From: Candidatus Parvarchaeota archaeon
GTDB lineage: Archaea; Nanobdellota; Nanobdellia; Parvarchaeales; Parvarchaeaceae
Assembly: GCA_023380585.1 (NCBI GenBank)
Contig: JAMCRN010000005.1
Span: 1 to 34,624 of the forward strand
Length of the DNA: 34,624 nucleotides
Reading direction: 5' to 3'
A program made the translations under genes and the position numbers. This document shows, piece by piece, positions 2,972 through 26,454 of the stretch. A model generated the notes under the pieces. The model did no database searches. It was not told where the DNA came from and saw nothing but the letters and a program-made list of their open reading frames with translations. Every line of letters starts with the position of its first letter. Position 1 is the stretch's first letter.

Positions 2972-3661
2972 TCATGGGCTGAAACATGAGGACTCGAACA
3001 TATTATACCCGAGTGGATATATCTTTATAAGATATTCCGGTAGGTTTTGCGGGAGGTAGATCTCGCCAGATGCATATCCGCTTGGTGTAGTGCCGATCGT
3101 ACTGTTAAGATAAGACCCTCCCACAGAGAATACGCTTATGTTGAAGGAAGTCGACTTGGCCAGAAGACCTATCTGGTTGTAGAAATCTATGCCGTATCCA
3201 AGATAGCTTCCGCTTATGTTGTAAGTCGTATTCACATAAGAGAGTCCGGCTTGCAGTCCAACATATATAGAACCATTTGATGTGTAATAAGCATATGCGG
3301 AATAGCTGCCGGCGGTGGTGGGAAGTATGCCCTGCATATTAAAATCCGATTTGGAGAGATAAGAGTAACCTGCTGACGATACCTTGACATAGTCTCCACA
3401 GAAGAAGGAATCAGCTTTATCCAACGCCGGGAAGTACTGTGTGAATATCGACTTGGAACCTATGCCCGCAGAACCTACATACTGAGCCTGTTGGGTTATT
3501 GATACTGCAGCGTTTTGGACCTGTTGGTATCCCGCGCCGTTGTTGTATGAAGAGTAGTAAACGAACGCATACACAAGGAAGATGGCTATCAGCCCAAAGG
3601 CTATCCCTATTATTATTAGATATTCGGTCGTGAATTGGGCTTTCCTCTGGATAGTATCCAT
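2972..3661 (-). CDS. Type IV pilin-like protein with class III signal peptide
   Basis: 229 residues. The N-terminus RKAQFTTEYLIIIGIAFG is a class III signal: a short basic leader, a predicted cut before Gln9, a Glu five residues into the mature part, and one hydrophobic helix to about residue 36. The rest is a Tyr/Ser/Gly-rich extracytoplasmic domain with several N-glycosylation sequons (NGS, NTT, NIS, NST) and exactly two cysteines (FFCGD and SSCFS), probably one disulfide. A TATA-like sequence near 3686-3696 lies about 29 bases before the ATG. The stop is 1 base from the GT4 start, so the two are likely co-transcribed. It may be a minor pilin or adhesin; pilin-like is firm, the role is not. 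Confidence 0.82.
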   Translation of the reverse strand: MDTIQRKAQFTTEYLIIIGIAFGLIAIFLVYAFVYYSSYNNGAGYQQVQNAAVSITQQAQYVGSAGIGSKSIFTQYFPALDKADSFFCGDYVKVSSAGYSYLSKSDFNMQGILPTTAGSYSAYAYYTSNGSIYVGLQAGLSYVNTTYNISGSYLGYGIDFYNQIGLLAKSTSFNISVFSVGGSYLNSTIGTTPSGYASGEIYLPQNLPEYLIKIYPLGYNMFESSCFSP

Positions 3662-6118: not shown

Positions 6119-6384
6119 GGCTTGTCCAGTTCTTTAGTCAATGCCTGTCCAGGCAGTCCGCGTCTGAATCTGGCCACGACCTTACCATTATCTCCATGAA
6201 GCCTTGTTATGACACCGACTATCCTACTTTCCGGTCGTTTCGAGAAGCTTATGCTTACTTTCTTACCGATGAACTTTTTTGCGGCTTCCCTGTCGGCCAC
6301 GTCCTGTATCTTTATTATGGCTTGGTTGCTGCGCTGAGTCTTTCTTCCCCTTCTGAACGAGACTATCTTCATTTCCATGCTCAT
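6112..6384 (-). CDS. rpl35ae: Large-subunit ribosomal protein eL33 (L35Ae)
   Basis: 90 residues. The C-terminal half, GVITRLHGDNGKVVARF then RRGLPGQAL, is the L35Ae signature: a small beta barrel that binds 23S rRNA. A basic N-terminal tract (FRRGRKTQRSNQ) fits rRNA contact. Its ATG overlaps the TGA of the upstream nucleotidyltransferase gene by 4 bp, so it is probably translationally coupled to it. Family assignment is clear from the HG..G...A.F core. Confidence 0.9.
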   Translation of the reverse strand: MSMEMKIVSFRRGRKTQRSNQAIIKIQDVADREAAKKFIGKKVSISFSKRPESRIVGVITRLHGDNGKVVARFRRGLPGQALTKELDKPQ

Positions 6385-7466
6385 TTGTCCTTTTGTGAAT
6401 AAGAGCTATGAAGCGTGCTCTCAGTCTGTTTAAGCAGGTCCTTGTCTATCACAGGCTTAGGAAGGCCTTTCTTCTCTCTCAGTCTTTCTATAACTACAAA
6501 TATCTTTTCGACCACATATTTTGTGCTTTGGCGCATCCTTTCGAATTCATCCCCGTTTACGGTTTTAAGCTCTCCATGGTCTATCTTTTTGAACCACGAT
6601 ATTATCGCATTGACTTTCTCCACGTCGTCTTTCGTGAGCACTTTCTCCTTCTCCACTGCCACAAGCATCAGCTCCCTGCTCACTTCCTTGGGCACAGGGG
6701 GCAGATAGCCATACTCCATCAGAAGTGCCTGCCCAGCAGAAACTACAGCATTAAACAAGTCAAGCGTGAGTTTTGTTGTAAGGACGTTCTCCACTAGCAT
6801 CAGATAACCTTCCGCGCTTTCGATGTTGCTATCTATAGATTCTTGAGTAGGGATTATCTTACCCGTCTTGTAAAGCAGCTGTATAGGTATAAAGAAGCCT
6901 GTATCATAAACAGCAACTCCATCCCTCAGTATTGTGAGTATAACTGGGTTCGGCTTTATTATAGAGGACCAGAATTCAGATAGAGGGTAAGCCTGTGCGT
7001 GTATCTTATCAGAGAAATCCCTAGCTATCTCAGCCATCTTAACGAACAGCCTGTCTTTTAGCTGCTGCAGCGTGAACTTCTGAATGTCCGTGTCGTCCAC
7101 TATGAACGCCACGTCTATGTCAGATGTGTTAGATAATCCTGTCTTTGTCTTGGAGCTGCCAAACATAACTATAGCCTTTATGTATTTCCTAAAAAGGCTA
7201 AGGACCCTTAGAAAATAAGCTCTTAGGCTGTTTGCGTCTTTAGCCGGGATTATCTTGCTTATTACATCGAATGATAGCCCTGCAAGCTGGCCTGGCGGCT
7301 CTGCCTTCTGCGCGTCTTCTCCCTCGCCTATTTCCAGGCCTATGAAAGAGCTCATAAAATCCACTCTCTCGTTAAGCTCGTCTATCTTCGATGACAGCAT
7401 CTCTATCGTGGAGAAAAGCCTGTCCAGCGCGTTTTCAGGCGCATTCGGATTTTCTGTTTGGTGCAT
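6381..7466 (-). CDS. MNT-type nucleotidyltransferase-domain protein with C-terminal helical region
   Basis: 361 residues. Residues 12-45 look like a coiled coil. The minimal nucleotidyltransferase (KNTase/Pol beta-like) motif follows: GS at 103-104, TGLSNTSDIDVAF with D116 and D118. The third acidic residue expected on a later strand is not obvious (the stretch reads KIHAQAYPL), so catalysis is uncertain. Residues from about 200 to the end are helical and may be HEPN-like. It is not a compact toxin-antitoxin pair; it is long, single, and overlaps the L35Ae gene by 4 bp. Function unknown; a role linked to ribosomes or RNA is only suggested by the operon. Confidence 0.72.
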   Translation of the reverse strand: MHQTENPNAPENALDRLFSTIEMLSSKIDELNERVDFMSSFIGLEIGEGEDAQKAEPPGQLAGLSFDVISKIIPAKDANSLRAYFLRVLSLFRKYIKAIVMFGSSKTKTGLSNTSDIDVAFIVDDTDIQKFTLQQLKDRLFVKMAEIARDFSDKIHAQAYPLSEFWSSIIKPNPVILTILRDGVAVYDTGFFIPIQLLYKTGKIIPTQESIDSNIESAEGYLMLVENVLTTKLTLDLFNAVVSAGQALLMEYGYLPPVPKEVSRELMLVAVEKEKVLTKDDVEKVNAIISWFKKIDHGELKTVNGDEFERMRQSTKYVVEKIFVVIERLREKKGLPKPVIDKDLLKQTESTLHSSYSQKDK

Positions 7467-8584: not shown

Positions 8585-10291
8585 ATGGATATAGGCTTGG
8601 AATCAAAGGCGATAGAAGCCTCGAAAACGTCTGCAGATGCAGACAAATGGGTGATGGAACTGAAAGCCCGCGCTTCCGGCATAAAGTCACATTACAAAGG
8701 CAGGATAGATTTCAGATTCGCCGGGGACACGGAGCTTCCTGAACTAGGCTTTCTTGGAAATCCGAAAGGATTCTACCTGTCCAGGGACGTCGAGAAGAGA
8801 TACCAATTCATATCGGAGTACGCAAGCGTCAGCCAGGAGCTGTCATATTTCAACTACAGCAAGATAAAGATGATGGAGTCCGTGGAGCCTACCGCTCTGT
8901 CTTCCTTGATGACCATGGTGCTGGAGAAAAGGAAGGCGCTGGAAGACAGGACGATGCAGCTTCTTGGCAGTGTTTACACAGTCCTTAAGTCTATAATATC
9001 CATAATCTACGAGCTTAAAGAGATGGACAGGAACCTCTCCTTCTATGATATCGCTAAATCCCACGATCCCGACAAGGCATCTGCGGCGGAATTAGGGCTG
9101 AAAAGGATATTCGTGGACAACATAGATTCAAGGAAGGGCGGCGCAAGCATGCTCTCTCTATCGAAATCTGCCACTCAGGGACAGGGCGCCGGTTATATCG
9201 ATATCGTAGCAGTTTTCTACAGCGTAAAAAGCCTACGCGACATAAACAGCATGAACAGGAACAAACAGTTCATAGACACAATAAAGAACAGGTATCTAGA
9301 ATATGAAGAGTGGAAAAAACTGAACGAGAAAGATCTCCGCACAAGAAGGGAGCTTCTCCTCCAGTATCTACGCAGCCAGGTCGCTTCCTTCCAGCTTTAT
9401 GTCGAGTGGACGTCGCAGTATCTGTCGATACTTAGGAGGATAAACCTTAAGACGATACGTGACGCAAAGTCTTACAAGCAGTATACCAAGCTAGCTGACG
9501 TCTCAGAGGCTGCAATGTTCTATGTGACCATAATGGGCTTTAAATACCTCTATAGGGGAGAATACGATGCCGAGTACTCAAAGATATTCGGGAGCAGAGG
9601 TCCTGAGATACCAGTGGCCGCAAAGCTCAAGTCTCCTGTCTCTTCTCTATTGTCCCGCGCGCCGCGCGAGGAAAGCAGGTCTTTCATATACAACAGGATA
9701 CGGAAATACGGGCCGGTAGTCGTACCTGCAATAGAGATATCCTTCGCATTCAAGGAGAAGCAGATGTTCACAAAGGAAGACGTCTTGCAGCAGAAGTCCC
9801 AGTACGAAGGCACATTGGACCTTCAGATAAACAACTACTGCTTCTCTCTGGACGAATGGTATCTTTTCAACAAGGCTCTAGAAATGAGCATAAAGAGGAC
9901 AGTCTTCGATTCAGTCAGTCAGATATCATCTGTTTCTCTGAACGCGATACAGGAGGACCTGAACAAGTACATAAAAGAGGCGGAGAGCAGAGACAAGCCG
10001 AAAGAGAAGAAACAGTCACAGTTCGCGATACTTGACATATATCAGGCGTTTAAAGATGATTTCACCGGGATAAACAAGGCGATCTCCTCCGTCAGCAATT
10101 CAAACCCTAAAAAGCAGTTCGACAAGGATCTGTACGAGGTAATGGTGAATTCCAGGATGTGGGGCAAAAAGATGGAGGACACTCTCGCGCTCGGCCTGTT
10201 CGTTTCCCATGAGGACGCAAGCACGATATACGAAGAATTCAAGAGGCGTTCAAAGCTTCTGAACCCTCTTTCGAAGTTCGATTTGATGTGA
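8585..10291 (+). CDS. Large unknown alpha-helical cytosolic protein heading a tiny-membrane-protein operon
   Basis: 568 residues, strongly helical and charged, with no signal peptide, no transmembrane segment and no Walker A motif, so it is not a secretion ATPase. Long helices with coiled-coil character appear at about residues 85-170 and 230-330 (YLEYEEWKKLNEKDLRTRRE). A linker rich in Lys and Glu (RDKPKEKKQSQ) lies near 465-475. I recognise no family. It is the first gene of a five-gene chain: its TGA overlaps a GTG that starts the first of four tiny membrane proteins, and every later junction is the same 4-bp overlap. This tight coupling suggests a complex in which it is the cytoplasmic partner of the membrane subunits. 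Confidence 0.75.
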   Translation: MDIGLESKAIEASKTSADADKWVMELKARASGIKSHYKGRIDFRFAGDTELPELGFLGNPKGFYLSRDVEKRYQFISEYASVSQELSYFNYSKIKMMESVEPTALSSLMTMVLEKRKALEDRTMQLLGSVYTVLKSIISIIYELKEMDRNLSFYDIAKSHDPDKASAAELGLKRIFVDNIDSRKGGASMLSLSKSATQGQGAGYIDIVAVFYSVKSLRDINSMNRNKQFIDTIKNRYLEYEEWKKLNEKDLRTRRELLLQYLRSQVASFQLYVEWTSQYLSILRRINLKTIRDAKSYKQYTKLADVSEAAMFYVTIMGFKYLYRGEYDAEYSKIFGSRGPEIPVAAKLKSPVSSLLSRAPREESRSFIYNRIRKYGPVVVPAIEISFAFKEKQMFTKEDVLQQKSQYEGTLDLQINNYCFSLDEWYLFNKALEMSIKRTVFDSVSQISSVSLNAIQEDLNKYIKEAESRDKPKEKKQSQFAILDIYQAFKDDFTGINKAISSVSNSNPKKQFDKDLYEVMVNSRMWGKKMEDTLALGLFVSHEDASTIYEEFKRRSKLLNPLSKFDLM

Positions 10292-10470
10292 ATATGTCCG
10301 GATCCGTCAAGGCGCAGATGTCTATCGACCAGATAATAGCGATAATCCTGGCCATAGTCGCTATTCTGTTCGGGCTGGCGATAGCATTGTACTTCTCACA
10401 CGGCTCAAACAGCCTTGCCAATTCCATACTTAATGTGCTGTCTTTCAGCTGGTTGTTCGGTCATGTATGA
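10288..10470 (+). CDS. Tiny pilin-like single-helix membrane protein (1 of 4)
   Basis: 60 residues from the GTG at 10288 that overlaps the previous TGA; an ATG at 10294 is the alternative start (58 residues). The N-terminus VKAQMSIDQIIAIILAIVAI resembles a class III signal peptide, with Asp in place of the usual Glu after the Gln. A single hydrophobic helix runs to about residue 35, then a short tail with SHGSNSLANSI. The stop overlaps the next ATG by 4 bp. It could be a processed minor pilin or a small membrane subunit. Confidence 0.66.
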   Translation: MNMSGSVKAQMSIDQIIAIILAIVAILFGLAIALYFSHGSNSLANSILNVLSFSWLFGHV

Positions 10471-10640
10471 TTAACGGCAGGCTCGGCAGCATTGAAGGCA
10501 GCGTTCTTCTCTATATAATATTGATAGTCGTAGGGGTTTTGATACTTGTGGTGATACTGGAGATATTCACACCATACAAGATAACAGACCTTTTCAAGCC
10601 CATTTTCTCCACGAATGTGAACGTAGGCAACCTGATATGA
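10467..10640 (+). CDS. Tiny single-helix membrane protein (2 of 4)
   Basis: 57 residues: a short basic start (MINGRLGSIEGS), one long hydrophobic helix (LLYIILIVVGVLILVVIL, about residues 14-31), then a tail with FKPIFS. The Glu before the helix resembles the Glu of type IV pilin signals, but no clear cleavage site is seen. The ATGA overlaps on both sides support translational coupling and therefore a real gene. Confidence 0.68.
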   Translation: MINGRLGSIEGSVLLYIILIVVGVLILVVILEIFTPYKITDLFKPIFSTNVNVGNLI

Positions 10641-10780
10641 ACAGAAAAGCGGTCTCAGACTATGTGCTGCTGATGATAATAACGCTGATAATCCTGATAG
10701 TGATACTTATATTCTACCTTTTTGTATACTCTCCAGCTACTCTACATAAGATACTGCCGGTCATACCGACGCTTCCGTGA
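10637..10780 (+). CDS. Tiny single-helix membrane protein (3 of 4)
   Basis: 47 residues, basic start (MNRKAVSDYV), one hydrophobic helix (LLMIITLIILIVILIFYLFV) and a short proline-containing tail. It has an acidic residue (D8) just before the helix, like its neighbours. It overlaps both neighbouring genes by 4 bp (ATGA before, GTGA after). No family recognised. Confidence 0.66.
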   Translation: MNRKAVSDYVLLMIITLIILIVILIFYLFVYSPATLHKILPVIPTLP

Positions 10781-10968
10781 CGCATATGGGACTTGGCAGA
10801 TCGGCGGTTCTGGAGGCGACGTTCTTTTACATCCTAGCGATAGTACTTGGGGTCATAATAATAGTCATATACATAATATTCATAACGCACGGGTCTCTAT
10901 TCATAGACATAGAGAATTTCTTTTCAAACCTCTTCGGTACCATCTTTTCTGGGTTTGCCAAGGTCTGA
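10777..10968 (+). CDS. Tiny single-helix membrane protein (4 of 4)
   Basis: 63 residues from a GTG at 10777, which makes a GTGA overlap like the first junction of this operon; an ATG at 10786 would give 60 residues. A short basic leader (GLGRSAVLEATF) precedes one helix (ILAIVLGVIIIVIYIIFI), then THGSLFIDIENFFSNLFG and a hydrophobic end. The tail resembles that of the tiny protein at 16042-16200 (THGTSPFDFFRGIFGG) in the other surface cluster, which ties the two regions together. Confidence 0.66.
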   Translation: MTHMGLGRSAVLEATFFYILAIVLGVIIIVIYIIFITHGSLFIDIENFFSNLFGTIFSGFAKV

Positions 10969-11076: not shown

Positions 11077-11652
11077 ATGATAACGTACAGTGAATTCGTA
11101 AAGATAAGAAGGCTAGAGCAGGAAGATTCCAGGACGCTTACAAAATTAACTGATGAGACACTCGATGAGATGAAGGACTATATAGCCATCAACAAAAAAT
11201 CCTTGGAAGTCGCAAGGAACGCCAAGGACCAGAAGAAAATAGACGAGATATCATCCCAGATAAACAACGCGATAAGCACCCTCGAACAGATACTTCTTAT
11301 ACGCATGAAGAAGCTTTCCAACATAGCCATAATGGGGCTTAACACGCAGGTGCTGCAGGGCAACCTCCTTTCAAAGGAGATAATACTATTTGATAAGTTC
11401 AGGGAGGCAGTGGACGAGATGAAATCCAAGGTAATGACCGAAGTCAGCCAAGTAGAGCCGAAGGAGCCAGAGAAGCCGGAGGAGACGGAAGACAAGCAGG
11501 ACAAGATGGTGATAAAGATAATAGCAGACGTCCCGCAGTTCATATGGAAGAACAACAAGTCATACGGGCCTTTCAGTTTTTCTAATACCGTCGAGATAGA
11601 CCGCGAAGTCGCCGAGATACTCATAAAAAGCGGCAAGGCGGTAGGTGATTGA
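11077..11652 (+). CDS. GINS complex subunit, Gins51-type
   Basis: 191 residues. Residues 1-120 are the helical A domain, starting MITYSEFVKIRRLEQ with long amphipathic helices. An acidic, proline-rich linker (EPKEPEKPEETED) separates it from the small C-terminal B domain at about 143-191, which reads KIIADVPQFIWKNNKSYGPF and ends VAEILIKSGKAV. Order A then B is that of Gins51 (the Sld5/Psf1 side). GINS tethers MCM helicase to Cdc45/RecJ-like protein and primase at the replication fork. Its TGA overlaps the ATG of the helicase gene by one base. Confidence 0.86.
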   Translation: MITYSEFVKIRRLEQEDSRTLTKLTDETLDEMKDYIAINKKSLEVARNAKDQKKIDEISSQINNAISTLEQILLIRMKKLSNIAIMGLNTQVLQGNLLSKEIILFDKFREAVDEMKSKVMTEVSQVEPKEPEKPEETEDKQDKMVIKIIADVPQFIWKNNKSYGPFSFSNTVEIDREVAEILIKSGKAVGD

Positions 11653-13181
11653 TGTTCATATCTAAAGAAAAGATAGAAGAGAGAGAATACCAGAAGAACA
11701 TAGTCCAAAGCGCAAAAGACTCCAACACTCTGGTGGTTCTGCCTACAGGTCTGGGTAAGACCATGATAAGCGCATTGGTCATGGACCACAGGCTGTCGAA
11801 ATATGAAGGCTCGAAAGCACTGTTCCTAGCCCCTACCAGACCACTCGTGAACCAGCACCTGAAGACTTTCAGCGGGCTGTTTTCCATCCCATGCTCAGCG
11901 GTCAGCGGGAATACGGCGAAAAAAGACAGGGAATCCATATATAAGGACTACCAGGTGATATTCGCCACGCCGCAGACTATAGACCATGACCTAAAGTCGA
12001 ATGCAATAAACTTCAAGGATTTCAGTCTGCTGGTAGTAGACGAGGCGCACCATGCGATAGGCAACTATTCTTATGTAGAGATAGCCAAGAATTTCTTGGT
12101 TTCCTCGATGCATCCTCTTGTGCTGGCGCTTACTGCTTCCCCTGCATCGGACAGGGAAAAACTCAGGTTAATATGCTCAAATCTCGGGATATCGAACCTG
12201 GAGATACGCAGCGAAGACGATCCAGACGTTTCCCCATATATAAAGGCTAAATTGGTAGAGGAAAGGCGACTCGAAATGCCCGAGGAGCTTTCTCAGCTGG
12301 TGGACAGACTGGAGAGGTTGATATCGGCGCAGATAGACGGACTCCAAACGGCCGGCTTTTTTAAGAATACCCCAAAGACAAGGGTAAACAGGACGAGCAT
12401 CCTGATGCTGCAGAGGTCTCTGCAGAAGCAGGTAGCCATGGGACGCAGGAGCTTCTATAACTTTCGTGGCATAGTCCTGGCGTCTAAGATACTTAAATTG
12501 TACCACGCGTTGTCTCTTCTTTCTACGCAAAGTGTACAGTCCTTCTTGAAGTTTTCAAGTTCTCTTCTTGAGGGCGAATCCAAAGCCGACAAGGACATAT
12601 CGAAATCAGCAGAATTCATAGACATAATCAAGAAAGCCGAAGAGCTTCAGTCCAGAGGCATTGAGCACCCAAAGCTGGAAGAGATAAAAAAGATACTGGC
12701 GCAGGAATCAGCTGAAGGCAAGAGGGCTATAATATTCGCGCAATACCGCGATACTGTGGACGCCATAGTGTCCAGTCTGAAGGGCCTGCCGAACGTGTCC
12801 CCAGTGAGGTTCATAGGGCACAGCAAGGACGGCCTGTCCCAGAAGGAACAGATAGAGATAATAAAGGATTTTGAAGCAGGAGTATATAACGTCCTTGTGT
12901 CCACAAGCGTCAGCGAAGAAGGCATCTCGATAAAGGGAGTAGACATAGCGATATTTTATGAGACTGTACCAAGCGCGATACGCTCCATACAGCGCCGTGG
13001 CAGGGTTGGCAGGTTCAACGTAGGAAGGATATTTATATTGATAACAAGACAGACATCAGACGAGAGCTATTACTGGGCCTCGAAGAGGAAGGAAAAAAGC
13101 ATGAAAAAGATAGTGAAAAGCGCAAAGATAGAGCCTATTATTTTCAGACAGGATGGGACCTTGAGGCCTTTCTACTCCTAA
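11652..13181 (+). CDS. hef: Hef/FANCM-type superfamily 2 helicase without nuclease domain
   Basis: 509 residues. I chose the ATG at 11652 rather than the TTG one codon earlier. Motifs in order: Q-motif-like REYQKNIV, Walker A LPTGLGKT (about 30-37), APTRPLV, TPQT, DEAH box VVDEAHH, LTASPAS, then the second RecA fold with IIFAQYRDTVDAI, VSTSVSEEGISI and QRRGRVGR. A helical insert between the folds (about 210-300) fits the Hef thumb-like domain. The family remodels stalled forks and branched DNA. Euryarchaeal Hef has a C-terminal XPF-type nuclease plus HhH; this protein stops after the helicase. Linkage to GINS agrees with a fork role. Confidence 0.9.
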   Translation: MFISKEKIEEREYQKNIVQSAKDSNTLVVLPTGLGKTMISALVMDHRLSKYEGSKALFLAPTRPLVNQHLKTFSGLFSIPCSAVSGNTAKKDRESIYKDYQVIFATPQTIDHDLKSNAINFKDFSLLVVDEAHHAIGNYSYVEIAKNFLVSSMHPLVLALTASPASDREKLRLICSNLGISNLEIRSEDDPDVSPYIKAKLVEERRLEMPEELSQLVDRLERLISAQIDGLQTAGFFKNTPKTRVNRTSILMLQRSLQKQVAMGRRSFYNFRGIVLASKILKLYHALSLLSTQSVQSFLKFSSSLLEGESKADKDISKSAEFIDIIKKAEELQSRGIEHPKLEEIKKILAQESAEGKRAIIFAQYRDTVDAIVSSLKGLPNVSPVRFIGHSKDGLSQKEQIEIIKDFEAGVYNVLVSTSVSEEGISIKGVDIAIFYETVPSAIRSIQRRGRVGRFNVGRIFILITRQTSDESYYWASKRKEKSMKKIVKSAKIEPIIFRQDGTLRPFYS

Positions 13182-13636
13182 TCCTTGATGGTTATTATGA
13201 ATTCTCCACCTGGCCCATATGTGTACTTGCCAGAGGAAGGAGATATCCCGGTGGTATTACATAAGAATTCCGTGGTGCCGGATTGGAGAGTAAGCGTCTT
13301 GTTAAAGGTATTTATCCCAACGGTATAATTCCCTATCTTGGAAGTGACTCCGCTATATATCATATAAACGTTATACAATACCCCAAGGCTGCCGTCATAA
13401 GCGGATATGGCAAACTCGTTGGGAGCGGATGACGTGCTTATATTATAAGGCGTTATCTGGCATTTTGCCGGGCTCTGGCTAAGTGATGGGACTGGACTGG
13501 ACAGCGGCAGTGACATGTGGTATACGAACACTGCTATAAGTATCACAAGCACAGAAAAAGCGACCACTATTATCACTATGACTATCGTCTCTATCGTAGT
13601 CGACCCCTTTCTCGAGCTCAAGTCGTTTCTACGCAT
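13178..13636 (-). CDS. Type IV pilin-like surface protein, last gene of the cysteine-rich cluster
   Basis: 152 residues. The frame extends further upstream, but the ATG at 13636 (MRRNDLSSRKG) places a class III-like signal at the N-terminus: RKG, then STTIE with Glu at mature position 5, then one long hydrophobic helix (IVIVIIVVAFSVLVILIAVF). The upstream extension reads as nonsense basic sequence lying over the 493-residue gene. The extracytoplasmic part has several sequons (NIS, NYT, NKT, NTT) and two cysteines. It overlaps the preceding gene by 19 bp and the convergent helicase gene by 4 bp. Confidence 0.76.
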   Translation of the reverse strand: MRRNDLSSRKGSTTIETIVIVIIVVAFSVLVILIAVFVYHMSLPLSSPVPSLSQSPAKCQITPYNISTSSAPNEFAISAYDGSLGVLYNVYMIYSGVTSKIGNYTVGINTFNKTLTLQSGTTEFLCNTTGISPSSGKYTYGPGGEFIITIKD

Positions 13637-15099
13637 ATGAATAGCTGATTCCTGCCAAGGAAGTTGCCGTTTGTCAGGTGAAGATAATACGGGATGCTCT
13701 CTATACTGCTGAGTATACCGGAAGCGCATTGTGAAAGCCCTGTAGTAGTAAGGGCGCCAGTGCTTACTACTTGTTCTAGATTGGAGGCTATGTACTGGTT
13801 GCATACCTTGTTGTTGGTACACTTTGCGTACAAGTATCCGCTTCCCAAAGAGCCAGCGTATATTTCGCCTGTAGTGACTATCCCTGGGTTTATGCTTCCT
13901 CCAACGAACGCCGACCCAAACACCAGAAGAGACCTGGAGCATTCATATTGCAACGCCTGCGTAGGGTAGTTGTTAAGGAAAGTCGCCGGAGCGCACTCGG
14001 TAGGCAGGCTTATAGTCTTGGGCGGGAAGCGGCTACCGGCAAAGGAATTAAGATAAACGTAATACACCTCCGAATGGCCTATGCTTAAGTTGCTGTACGG
14101 GGAGACGAATTCCGACTTTCCTGAGGTTATATTCTTGTAGCTGAATATGACGTTCACTCCTGGTTTTAGATAACTGAAGTAGGAAACATTTTCCACTGAT
14201 TTCGGGTTGACGGGCTCCGTTAATGTGCATGAATTAGGCACTTCGAAGCCGTTGGTAGTTGGATCATAACCAACGGTGCAGTTGTAACTTCCACTCTCTT
14301 TCTGGCAGAAGTCTGTGTATGTCTGTGTGCAGCTTATAGGGCTGCCAGTGGAATTTGTACATTCCGCGATTGCCTTGTTGAAAGAGCATCCCTGGGATTC
14401 TTCACAGAGGAATGCAGACATGTTGTTAGCAGCATTTGTGCTTTTTACAGAGCTGTTAAGCGGGATATACGTGGTATAATACCCAGGCGAAGTCGGGACA
14501 TAATTCGGCTGGTCCCGGCATAGGAAGTAATCGGACGTGCTATCAACGCATACAGAGGGAGCATTGACGTCGCATGAAAACCCTTCCTGGTAGTTTGCAC
14601 ACGACTGCGCAGCAGTGTGATTTAGACAGCTTACCTGTGTGGTATAAGCAGTGTCCTGCAGATAATTTGTCAGGTTCCTGAAAGTTATATTCCTGTTTGT
14701 ATCGAGGACAGACACACTGCACATCCCAGGAGAATTCGGGAGGACCAGCAACCCCTGGTTTGCACCGTACCTGTCCCAACAGCTTACCATCCCGGTGCTG
14801 AGAGAGGAGAATATCTGCCCGTTCGTGTCGCTCGAAGAGAATGAGGAAGCAGATGGCGAGCAACCTAGTAGAGGCGGCTCCAGGTGTAATGAAGCTAAAG
14901 AAGAGGAGATGCAAAGGTACTGCGTCGCACAGAGGTCATTGAAAAAAAAGTTCCTTACAAGAGAACTGGCATAGCAGGTGGTAGCGTCAGTGAAACCGAA
15001 GCCGAAAAAAACGAAGTAGGCGCCTATGATTATTATCACGGAGATGAATATTATACCAAGTATTATGAGCGCTATGTTCTCGCCTACGGTCTCAGCCAT
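13618..15099 (-). CDS. Large cysteine-rich, N-anchored surface protein
   Basis: 493 residues. One N-terminal hydrophobic helix follows a short acidic start (MAETVGEN, helix about 9-34); no cleavage site is clear, so it is probably a signal anchor. The remaining 455 residues should be extracytoplasmic: rich in Ser, Thr, Asn and Tyr, with many N-glycosylation sequons and 24 cysteines, none in the anchor. I recognise no domain. A TATA-like GTATAAAAAG at about 15121-15130 lies 27 bases before the ATG, so it may have its own leaderless promoter. It is the largest member of a five-gene surface cluster. Confidence 0.76.
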   Translation of the reverse strand: MAETVGENIALIILGIIFISVIIIIGAYFVFFGFGFTDATTCYASSLVRNFFFNDLCATQYLCISSSLASLHLEPPLLGCSPSASSFSSSDTNGQIFSSLSTGMVSCWDRYGANQGLLVLPNSPGMCSVSVLDTNRNITFRNLTNYLQDTAYTTQVSCLNHTAAQSCANYQEGFSCDVNAPSVCVDSTSDYFLCRDQPNYVPTSPGYYTTYIPLNSSVKSTNAANNMSAFLCEESQGCSFNKAIAECTNSTGSPISCTQTYTDFCQKESGSYNCTVGYDPTTNGFEVPNSCTLTEPVNPKSVENVSYFSYLKPGVNVIFSYKNITSGKSEFVSPYSNLSIGHSEVYYVYLNSFAGSRFPPKTISLPTECAPATFLNNYPTQALQYECSRSLLVFGSAFVGGSINPGIVTTGEIYAGSLGSGYLYAKCTNNKVCNQYIASNLEQVVSTGALTTTGLSQCASGILSSIESIPYYLHLTNGNFLGRNQLFICVETT

Positions 15100-15144
15100 A
15101 ATGATTATTAAGCAAGCGCTTCTTTTTATACGATTTTATGCCTC

Positions 15145-16041
15145 TTAGGACGTATTGTTAGTCAGACAAACGAAGACCCTGTCTTGGTGGTATACCATGG
15201 CATTTATCAGCCTGCCGCAGAAGCTCACATAAACGTCGCATCCATAGTTCAGGTTCGGGGGGGATGCAGTAGACGGATTACCATTCGACAGCGAACTGAC
15301 TGGATACGATACCTGTGATACCGTCTGATTAGAATAACCGCATTCGTATAATGGAAGGAAAGGCTGGCCATATGGGGAGACGTCAGTGCACTGCTGCTCG
15401 AAAGGGATGCTGCAGCCTTTTATCCCATTAGAGGGGTATCCGAAGTATTCTATTGTAAAGTAAGAATCGTTATAAACTTTCCAGTCAAGTCCTGGGTAGG
15501 TCGAATTCCCATCCGTCGAATTCGTTATAAACACGATACGCACTGGTCCGTTGGTTCTATTATAGTTTTGGTCTATATAATCTATAATAGCGGAATAGTT
15601 GCTCACATAAGCGGAAGACCTGTCTATTATTTTTCCATTGTAACAGTCAAACACATTCCCTAAGGAAGACGCGACCTGCTCTCCTGTGCCTGTATTAGAA
15701 CCCTGGAAAAGATTGAAACATGAAGAAGCCCTAGTGTAAAGCTGCGCGGATAATACAGAATTAGAAGTCGAACTTATGTCGGAAGTCTGCAAGCAAGCCG
15801 TTTGGAGCTGCGCCGCCGTTTCCGATATATATGGAGTGTTTATCCCGACATATGAGGATAGAACGTGTATTGGGTAAAGAAAGGAATTTATTATACCAAA
15901 ACCTGTGAAGGAAAAATAGCAGTTCACGCCGAAGCTTAAGGCGGGAGTGGACGTGACCAGGTTGAGCGAGAATATTAATATTAAAATCGCTGCTATAACG
16001 ACTATTATTATTTCTCCTAAAGTAAGATATATCCCTTCCAT
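15145..16041 (-). CDS. Cysteine-containing, N-anchored surface protein
   Basis: 298 residues. The start MEGIYLTLGEIIIVVIAAILILIF gives one anchor helix preceded by a Glu, pilin-like in layout but without a basic leader. The rest is extracytoplasmic in character, with sequons (NYS, NRT, NST, NDS, NQT, NNT) and ten cysteines. I recognise no domain. It begins at the base next to the stop of the 52-residue membrane protein, so the two are co-transcribed. Confidence 0.74.
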   Translation of the reverse strand: MEGIYLTLGEIIIVVIAAILILIFSLNLVTSTPALSFGVNCYFSFTGFGIINSFLYPIHVLSSYVGINTPYISETAAQLQTACLQTSDISSTSNSVLSAQLYTRASSCFNLFQGSNTGTGEQVASSLGNVFDCYNGKIIDRSSAYVSNYSAIIDYIDQNYNRTNGPVRIVFITNSTDGNSTYPGLDWKVYNDSYFTIEYFGYPSNGIKGCSIPFEQQCTDVSPYGQPFLPLYECGYSNQTVSQVSYPVSSLSNGNPSTASPPNLNYGCDVYVSFCGRLINAMVYHQDRVFVCLTNNTS

Positions 16042-16200
16042 TCAAATCCCTCCGAAAATACCACGGAAAAAGTCAAACGGGGAAGTCCCATGCGTGGAAG
16101 AGTAGAATAGGATGGCGACTACAGCTATAACAACAAGCGCTGTTATTATTGTGATAAGTATCCACATTATTCTCCATGGAACGCTCGCTTTTTTGTCCAT
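16042..16200 (-). CDS. Tiny single-helix membrane protein of the surface cluster
   Basis: 52 residues from the ATG at 16200 (MDKKASVPWRIMW), two bases after the preceding stop. GTG at 16227 or ATG at 16218 would lengthen it but overlap the upstream gene. One helix (about residues 10-35) is followed by STHGTSPFDFFRGIFGG. That His-Gly then Phe-rich tail resembles the tail of the tiny protein at 10777-10968, suggesting related membrane subunits in two clusters. Confidence 0.65.
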   Translation of the reverse strand: MDKKASVPWRIMWILITIITALVVIAVVAILFYSSTHGTSPFDFFRGIFGGI

Positions 16201-16202
16201 AT

Positions 16203-16721
16203 TCACTGCCCAGCGCATGCCGGACACTGTGGGCTATCACCTGGCAGACAGCTTGGTATGTTTATGTTACAGTTCTCTATCGTGGTGGAGTTGTCGGCTA
16301 TGATCGTGCTCCTGCTGCAGCTTTCCAAAGCTGCAGTATTGGATATTGATATGCTCTTGCAGTTGTTTGCCACGACAGGAAAGGCAGAAGGGTCGGATAT
16401 GCAGCTCTGGACCTGGGAATAGCTTCCCTGGCCGTTCTTCCAAAGAGTATAGTAGCACCAGTGGGTCACGCAAGTGTTGTAAGCAGTGGACTGTTGGTAG
16501 CATGCGTTTTCGTCATAACACCTGAAAAGAGGAGTCCCCTCAAGCCGGTTAGGCACGCCGTATTCTGCCTGGGTGAACTGGTTTTCAAGCACGTTGCTGT
16601 TGCTGTCGCACCCTACCGGGAATATTGATGAAAAAGAATTATAAAACGTAAGGAAGACCACTAAAGAAACTATTATGCCTAATAGGACCTCGAATACTAT
16701 GAACTCCTCTACGCTTGGCAT
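16203..16721 (-). CDS. Small cysteine-rich N-anchored surface protein, first gene of its cluster
   Basis: 172 residues. MPSVEEFIVFEVLLGIIVSLVVFL gives one anchor helix (about 7-30) with acidic residues before and inside it. The extracytoplasmic part has 12 cysteines, including RCYDENAC and the C-terminal CPGDSPQ-type and CPAC motifs, and sequons NST and NNC-like sites. No family recognised; the end resembles a small metal- or disulfide-stabilised knot. A TATA-like GGTTAAATCC at about 16744-16753 lies 28 bases before the ATG. Confidence 0.74.
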   Translation of the reverse strand: MPSVEEFIVFEVLLGIIVSLVVFLTFYNSFSSIFPVGCDSNSNVLENQFTQAEYGVPNRLEGTPLFRCYDENACYQQSTAYNTCVTHWCYYTLWKNGQGSYSQVQSCISDPSAFPVVANNCKSISISNTAALESCSRSTIIADNSTTIENCNINIPSCLPGDSPQCPACAGQ

Positions 16722-25953: not shown

Positions 25954-26454
25954 ATGAAAACAAAAGCACAGTCAGCTTTGGAATACATGATGACTTATGG
26001 CTGGGCCATATTGATCATCGTTATCGTAGCGGCTGTACTTTATTCGTTGGGAATCTTTAGTCCATCGAGCAGTGTAGGTGCTGTGCAGACAGGGTTCGCT
26101 CCGTTCACGGCCACGGCCTCAAGTTGCACACCTGGTTATTTTGCGGTGGCATTTAGTACTGGTGGTCTTCCAGCAGGGTCTTCGGATGCTACCATAACTG
26201 CTGCCACAACTGAAATTACGTCTGATACTGGTTTGCCTGCTACTACTCTTCCAGCTCAAGCAACCGGCCTACCCGCAGCAACAACAATTACAGTAACACC
26301 AGGTAGCACATTTGTAGTGAACTGGTCAAGTGTTAAGTGTTCAACACCTGGAGTGCACTACAGTGCTTCTATAACGATGAACTACACCTATACTTCAGCA
26401 GGACTTACGTCTGTTGTTCCAGCGAAAGGTACAGTTTCAGGTACTTCAAGCTAA
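25954..26454 (+). CDS. Probable major type IV pilin
   Basis: 166 residues. KAQSALEYMMTYGWAILI is the canonical archaeal class III signal of the EYMMTYGWA type, cut before Gln6. One helix runs to about residue 34. The mature domain is dominated by Ala, Thr, Ser, Gly and Pro, with repeats such as LPATTLPAQATGLPAAT, and two cysteines (SSCTPG, VKCSTPG). Codon use differs from its neighbours (more GCA, ACT, CCA and ATT). A strong promoter and an intrinsic-type terminator frame it as a single gene. High expression is likely. Confidence 0.85.
   Translation: MKTKAQSALEYMMTYGWAILIIVIVAAVLYSLGIFSPSSSVGAVQTGFAPFTATASSCTPGYFAVAFSTGGLPAGSSDATITAATTEITSDTGLPATTLPAQATGLPAATTITVTPGSTFVVNWSSVKCSTPGVHYSASITMNYTYTSAGLTSVVPAKGTVSGTSS

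Follow-up and report, generated by a model that had tools for sequence, protein, structure and literature searches.

Tiny genes of a Parvarchaeum-like archaeon most likely encode minimal, single-helix pilin-like parts of a class-wide type IV pilus-type machine

Four tiny membrane proteins encoded behind a 568-aa protein in a DPANN archaeon most likely serve as minimal pilin-like components of a class-wide type IV pilus-type surface machine, and the larger protein appears to have become their neighbour through a DNA inversion. The window, by which we mean the whole stretch of 34,624 nucleotides analysed, is one entire contig of a draft genome of 702 kb and 83% completeness. This genome is that of a Parvarchaeum-like archaeon, whose relatives in the collection used are named as ‘Candidatus Parvarchaeota’ and ‘Nanoarchaeota’ MAGs and Candidatus Acidifodinimicrobium mancum. 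The class concerned consists of tiny archaea that are mostly host-dependent. We have called the 568-aa protein BIG and the four small membrane proteins downstream of it in the window tiny1-4; these and the other genes discussed here are the following.

BIG, 8585..10291, + strand: 568 aa, soluble; co-directional neighbour, probably no machine component
tiny1, 10294..10470, + strand: 58 aa (60 aa if started at the GTG at 10288), pilin-like helix; leader SVKA, then QMSIDQIIAI
tiny2, 10467..10640, + strand: 57 aa, pilin-like helix; leader GRLG, then SIEGSVLLY
tiny3, 10637..10780, + strand: 47 aa, pilin-like helix; leader NRKA, then VSDYVLLM
tiny4, 10786..10968, + strand: 60 aa (63 aa if started at the GTG at 10777), pilin-like helix; leader GRSA, then VLEATFFY
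GINS51, 11077-11652, + strand: replication/repair gene with a Gins51_C Pfam match, no machine part
Hef-like helicase, 11649-13181, + strand: replication/repair gene, no machine part; the name is a reading of the sequence
pil13178, 13178..13636, - strand: about 152 aa, N-anchored, leader SSRKG; directly upstream of tiny1 in the ancestral order
CYS13618, 13618..15099, - strand: 493 aa, Cys-rich; N-terminal helix 5-32 and a predicted extracytoplasmic alpha/beta domain
CYS15145, 15145..16041, - strand: 298 aa, N-anchored, Cys-containing; in the same position behind PilB-PilC in genomes G053 and G056
tiny5, 16042..16200, - strand: about 52 aa, pilin-like helix (MDKKASVPWRIMWILI); conserved in the family and in G053
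CYS16203, 16203..16721, - strand: 172 aa, N-anchored, Cys-containing; first gene after PilC in G053, G056 and G043

An earlier note on this DNA had read BIG and the four small frames as a chain of five genes. All five frames are indeed open (8585-10291, 10288-10470, 10467-10640, 10637-10780 and 10777-10968, giving 568, 60, 57, 47 and 63 aa as first called), and each small product has, as claimed, one strong hydrophobic helix (Kyte-Doolittle 19-window values of 3.3-3.6). We found tiny1-4 in the same order in 28/28 genomes of Parvarchaeum, 3/3 of genus g3 and 1/1 of genus g2. Given this constant order in all 32 family genomes checked and median dN/dS values of about 0.04-0.09 (0.043, 0.094, 0.072 and 0.051 for tiny1, tiny2, tiny3 and tiny4, respectively, over 26 Parvarchaeum loci), tiny1-4 are genuine genes. 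In the same 26 loci, their lengths are nearly constant and third codon positions hold 50-56% of the differences, so the lack of coding conservation that the note had named as a ground for doubt does not apply to these frames. Searches of Pfam, NCBIfam and PHROGs gave nothing credible for the tiny proteins.

All four junctions had been described as overlaps of the form GTGA or ATGA. Two of these depend on GTG starts that find no support in relatives, where tiny1 and leader-bearing tiny4 start at an ATG a few residues ahead of the leader site. The equivalent ATGs lie in the window at 10294 and 10786, and with them the gaps become +2, -4, -4 and +5. Among 26 relatives, a -4 overlap was present at the four successive junctions in 0/26, 15/26, 1/26 and 0/26 cases, so that only the tiny1/tiny2 junction often shows it. 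The proposal that coupled translation sets the ratio of the products is thus unsupported, as the -4 spacing is not conserved and is frequent elsewhere in the window (5/26 other co-directional gene pairs). Translational coupling by 4-bp overlaps as a conserved feature was rejected on the spacing in the 26 relatives.

BIG was identified in 54 of 55 relatives across the class. In other families its cluster is conserved and comprises a DUF63 membrane protein, a TIM barrel of xylose isomerase-like type and a nucleotidyltransferase, with no tiny genes behind BIG, and the window retains the nucleotidyltransferase adjoining BIG (6381-7466, - strand). The class-wide BIG cluster is often found beside ABCE1. 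When we asked, following the earlier note, whether tiny helices always follow the 568-aa protein, they did so only in most Parvarchaeum genomes, and BIG occurs in relatives without any downstream tiny frames, the very observation that was to refute its role as a partner. The tiny block is away from BIG, behind Cys-rich N-anchored proteins, in G023, G027, G028 and G029-G031. Since gene order places BIG in a class-wide, unrelated cluster without tiny genes, it is probably not a partner of tiny1-4; as a scaffold for membrane helices it was also rejected on gene order. The statement that BIG has no known motif or ATPase site stands: we detected no P-loop and no Pfam, NCBIfam, PHROG or convincing PDB match, the PDB profile search giving only marginal proteasome alpha matches (E 0.004) that we do not believe, and a Foldseek search of its model against the PDB giving nothing below E 0.1. 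It is a large protein, as had been said, but not a purely helical one, for its model (of modest confidence, pLDDT 69) contains about seven strands in a mixed alpha/beta arrangement. Being near-universal in the class, BIG is of interest as a dark-matter core protein.

How the tiny genes came to lie behind BIG can be read from the relatives. In G023, G027, G028 and the g3 genomes, the tiny block directly follows pil13178 and CYS13618 and precedes GINS51, and in most of them CYS15145 and tiny5 also precede it on the same strand. The ancestral order obtained from these genomes is (tiny5-CYS15145-)CYS13618-pil13178-tiny1-2-3-4-GINS51. In the window, the N-anchored and mostly Cys-rich run occupies 13178-16721 on the strand opposite to tiny1-4, and a single inversion of [tiny1-4, GINS51, Hef] explains this order; it is because of this inversion that tiny1 is found behind BIG. 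GINS51 and the Hef-like helicase moved with the tiny block and are not parts of the machine. In two genomes (G014 and G021) the tiny block is still behind BIG, with GINS51, Hef and the Cys-rich genes located elsewhere. Hence, tightly overlapping operon neighbours can be recent accidents of inversion.

To place the tiny genes in the wider class, we searched 378 class genomes with a CYS13618 profile and found homologues in 50, which outside the family mostly adjoin PilB/PilC. There, long one-strand runs open with an assembly ATPase of about 760 aa and a platform protein of about 690 aa, followed by 10-20 N-anchored proteins that are tiny (45-75 aa), medium (MKAQGLPxNTIV type, often with 6-10 Cys) or large and Cys-rich. 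In G053, G043, G056 and others, PilB-PilC is followed on one strand by CYS16203, tiny5, CYS15145, CYS13618, tiny1 and tiny4, with some members missing or unrecognised in each locus. The order CYS16203, (tiny5), CYS15145, CYS13618, tiny1, tiny4 of G053 and G056 agrees with the ancestral Parvarchaeum order. When loci were selected by PilC alone, tiny helices likewise followed the platform gene in many families; the PilC loci of G037 and G049 carry no tiny genes, which counts against the machine reading. As distant matches to tiny profiles score low owing to their shortness and hydrophobic composition, we relied on control loci and gene position. Tiny hydrophobic frames numbered 45 in 264 kb of loci picked by CYS13618 and 23 in 264 kb of those picked by PilC, compared with 1 in 271 kb of controls, and tiny-profile matches with E<0.01 numbered 44 in the system loci (some frames being matched by several profiles) compared with 1 in the controls. 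It speaks against the assignment that distant tiny matches depend on position as much as on score. According to gene order, the membership of the tiny genes in the machine is well supported.

The genome of the window has the corresponding machine genes on another contig, C26, which encodes orthologous PilB (746 aa) and PilC (703 aa), 53% and 37% identical to those of G053. PilB matches PF00437 above cut-off, as expected for a T2SSE/VirB11-type assembly ATPase, and resembles the type II secretion ATPase 2oap, CpaF and FlaI. The platform frame paired with it gives 18.2 bits with PF00482 (cut-off 25.2) and has a homologue in 26/26 high-quality relatives. No recognised pilin genes are found beside the C26 pair, a result that counts against the machine reading. 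Contig C9 encodes a separate Tad/Epd-like ATPase with two platform genes, with PF00482 above cut-off, and the genome thus carries two separate pilus-type machines. Two typical archaeal pilin-like proteins of the window, at 25954-26454 and 2972-3661 (N-termini KAQSALEYMMTYGWAIL and KAQFTTEYLI, respectively), are perhaps subunits of the C9 system. A prepilin peptidase (A24) was found on contig C28, with PF01478 above cut-off and a FlaK-like match below the NCBIfam cut-off. In two g3 genomes, a prepilin peptidase-like gene is located about 3.5 kb from the tiny block. At L122 1248-4698 and L128 1839-6850, the neighbours of the peptidase gene are a divergent gene resembling diphthine synthase and genes for two N-anchored pilin-like proteins; in genus g3 these genes adjoin GINS51 and the tiny block.

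The proteins themselves show several features of pilins. A [KR][GA] motif directly before the helix is present in 130/200 N-anchored proteins of the system loci compared with 4/31 in control loci. The class III-like leader that had been proposed for the first tiny protein was confirmed as a prediction, with the relaxed motif [KRHQN][GA] occurring in tiny1-3 in 26/26 loci and in tiny4 in 9/26; in relatives, tiny1 has the leader consensus [KR][KR][GA] followed by [QE]MPITEIIAI. In the other 17/26 loci, tiny4 lacks the motif and its frame mostly begins, with Met-Glu, where the mature N-terminus would lie (MESVWFY.. type). Part of the genus has lost the prepilin leader of tiny4, which offers a natural test of the purpose of the leader but weighs against the machine reading. 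An acidic residue near the helix, likened before to that of type IV pilins, is present in most of the tiny proteins but not at the classical +5: it is mostly at +6 in tiny1, at +2/+3 in tiny3 and at +3 in leader-bearing tiny4, and it is absent in most tiny2 relatives. The +5 acidic residue is variable among archaeal pilins, and so the lack of Glu at +5 of the mature protein lowers the likelihood of pilin identity without excluding it. The model of CYS13618 (of modest confidence, pLDDT 66) has the N-terminal helix followed by the alpha/beta domain, a predicted layout that would correspond to the usual pilin plan; Foldseek found no match to it in the PDB below E 0.1. Among the machine genes, no candidate major pilin stands out, which again counts against the machine reading.

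Taking these results together, we consider it quite probable that a type IV filament machine present in many families of the class has tiny1-5 and the N-anchored, mostly Cys-rich proteins of 13178-16721 as pilin-like subunits, and we infer the processing, assembly and formation of a filament and its role in adhesion. Most subunits would first carry a short basic leader that ends in [KR][GA] and may be removed by a FlaK/PibD-type peptidase encoded elsewhere in the genome, leaving a hydrophobic helix with a tail of 15-25 residues. PilB and the polytopic PilC would then draw the helices from the membrane and assemble a short pilus or pseudopilus from them. Its core or initiation complex may consist of the helix-only subunits, and its exposed part, probably used to contact a host or a surface, of the large Cys-rich ones, presumably stabilised by disulphides outside the cell. 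BIG would not be required, as an operon neighbour brought in through one inversion. We propose more tentatively, with odds clearly below even, that this class-wide DPANN machine of helix-only and Cys-rich subunits supplies the missing cognate pilins of nanoarchaeal pilus ATPases and serves these symbionts for attachment to their hosts, host attachment being suggested by the lifestyle.

One could argue that the five genes encode one dedicated complex unrelated to type IV pili, with BIG as a cytoplasmic scaffold or adaptor of the four helices, given that they lie on one strand with tight spacing in 26/28 Parvarchaeum genomes. We regard this as very improbable, since BIG is found class-wide in another conserved cluster and two Parvarchaeum genomes, as well as genera g2 and g3, carry the tiny block at a different place; gene order largely refutes it. 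Of the two options left by the earlier note, an undescribed membrane complex or a minimal pilus-like assembly, the pilus-like one is favoured by the order of the genes around PilB/PilC, and the five-gene complex with BIG is not.

Two other explanations keep the tiny genes within the machine. The tiny proteins might be accessory single-helix subunits that do not polymerise and act around the ATPase-platform or the base of the machine, with a stator-like or anchoring role. Several points would fit such a role: the tiny families are distinct and each present in one copy, they leave little space for a domain exposed at the surface, tiny4 is leaderless in part of the genus, and the genes lie within the operon of the machine. 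We nevertheless find it unlikely: most of these proteins have a leader of prepilin type and, close to the mature N-terminus, an acidic residue; Tad pili are polymers of helix-only pilins (PMC11067988), and in M. maripaludis the major pilin has just 62 residues when mature (PMC3875500). The system could also be a short secretion or uptake pseudopilus (T2SS-, competence- or bindosome-like) instead of a pilus for adhesion, a compatible variant of the pilin-like reading that we hold to be a real, if minority, prospect. The many different pilin-like proteins with no obvious abundant major pilin, and the large Cys-rich proteins predicted to be extracytoplasmic, agree with it; in an unsystematic look at the loci, we recognised no substrate-binding domain, nuclease or DNA-channel gene, which argues against it. 

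The conserved order provides a concrete parts list, many of whose genes have 45-75 codons and are easily missed in annotation, and it bears on how DPANN archaea hold their hosts and on the nanoarchaeal pilus ATPases reported without recognisable pilins (PMC4858521). In that study, Makarova et al. (2016) described nanoarchaeal type IV pilus ATPases of clade 4F without identifiable cognate pilins; our system likewise has an assembly ATPase with a platform protein and, in contrast, offers candidate pilins. Makarova et al. (2019; PMC6393860, Fig. 2A) described islands of type IV pilus genes in DPANN archaea, with ‘dark matter’ pilins. These are similar in that genes for a type IV pilus ATPase and a TadC-type protein precede unrecognised proteins with signal peptides, which the authors took for diverse pilins. 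They differ, as far as a comparison of loci by description goes, in that the text and legend make no mention of tiny helices of 45-60 residues, of a constant order or of the inversion. Two T4P systems have been reported for ARMAN-2 Mia14 (PMC5498576), and pilA-type pilins with unspecified other structural genes for Parvarchaeales (PMC10134863).

Regarding small pilins, the EppA-dependent pilins of M. maripaludis (MMP1685, MMP1283) are made as prepilins of 67-76 aa, 54-63 aa when mature, with a major pilin of 74 aa (PMC3875500). They are also very small class III prepilins and work in multi-subunit pili, although the Q+1 and E+5 conserved among them are mostly missing from our proteins. In Epd-like and Tad systems the platform is split over two genes, each with a single T2SSF domain (PMC6668835), whereas the PilC linked to our genes is a single protein of about 700 aa, so the platform is not split. 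The Tad/Flp pilus of Caulobacter shares with our system pilins without a globular domain (PMC11067988), but it is bacterial and has its own accessory genes, while here several different helix-only proteins are accompanied by large Cys-rich ones. Our literature search, which covered mainly the text of openly available papers, returned no description of tiny-helix cassettes, and the parts list with several helix-only subunits is more specific than the published accounts that we found.
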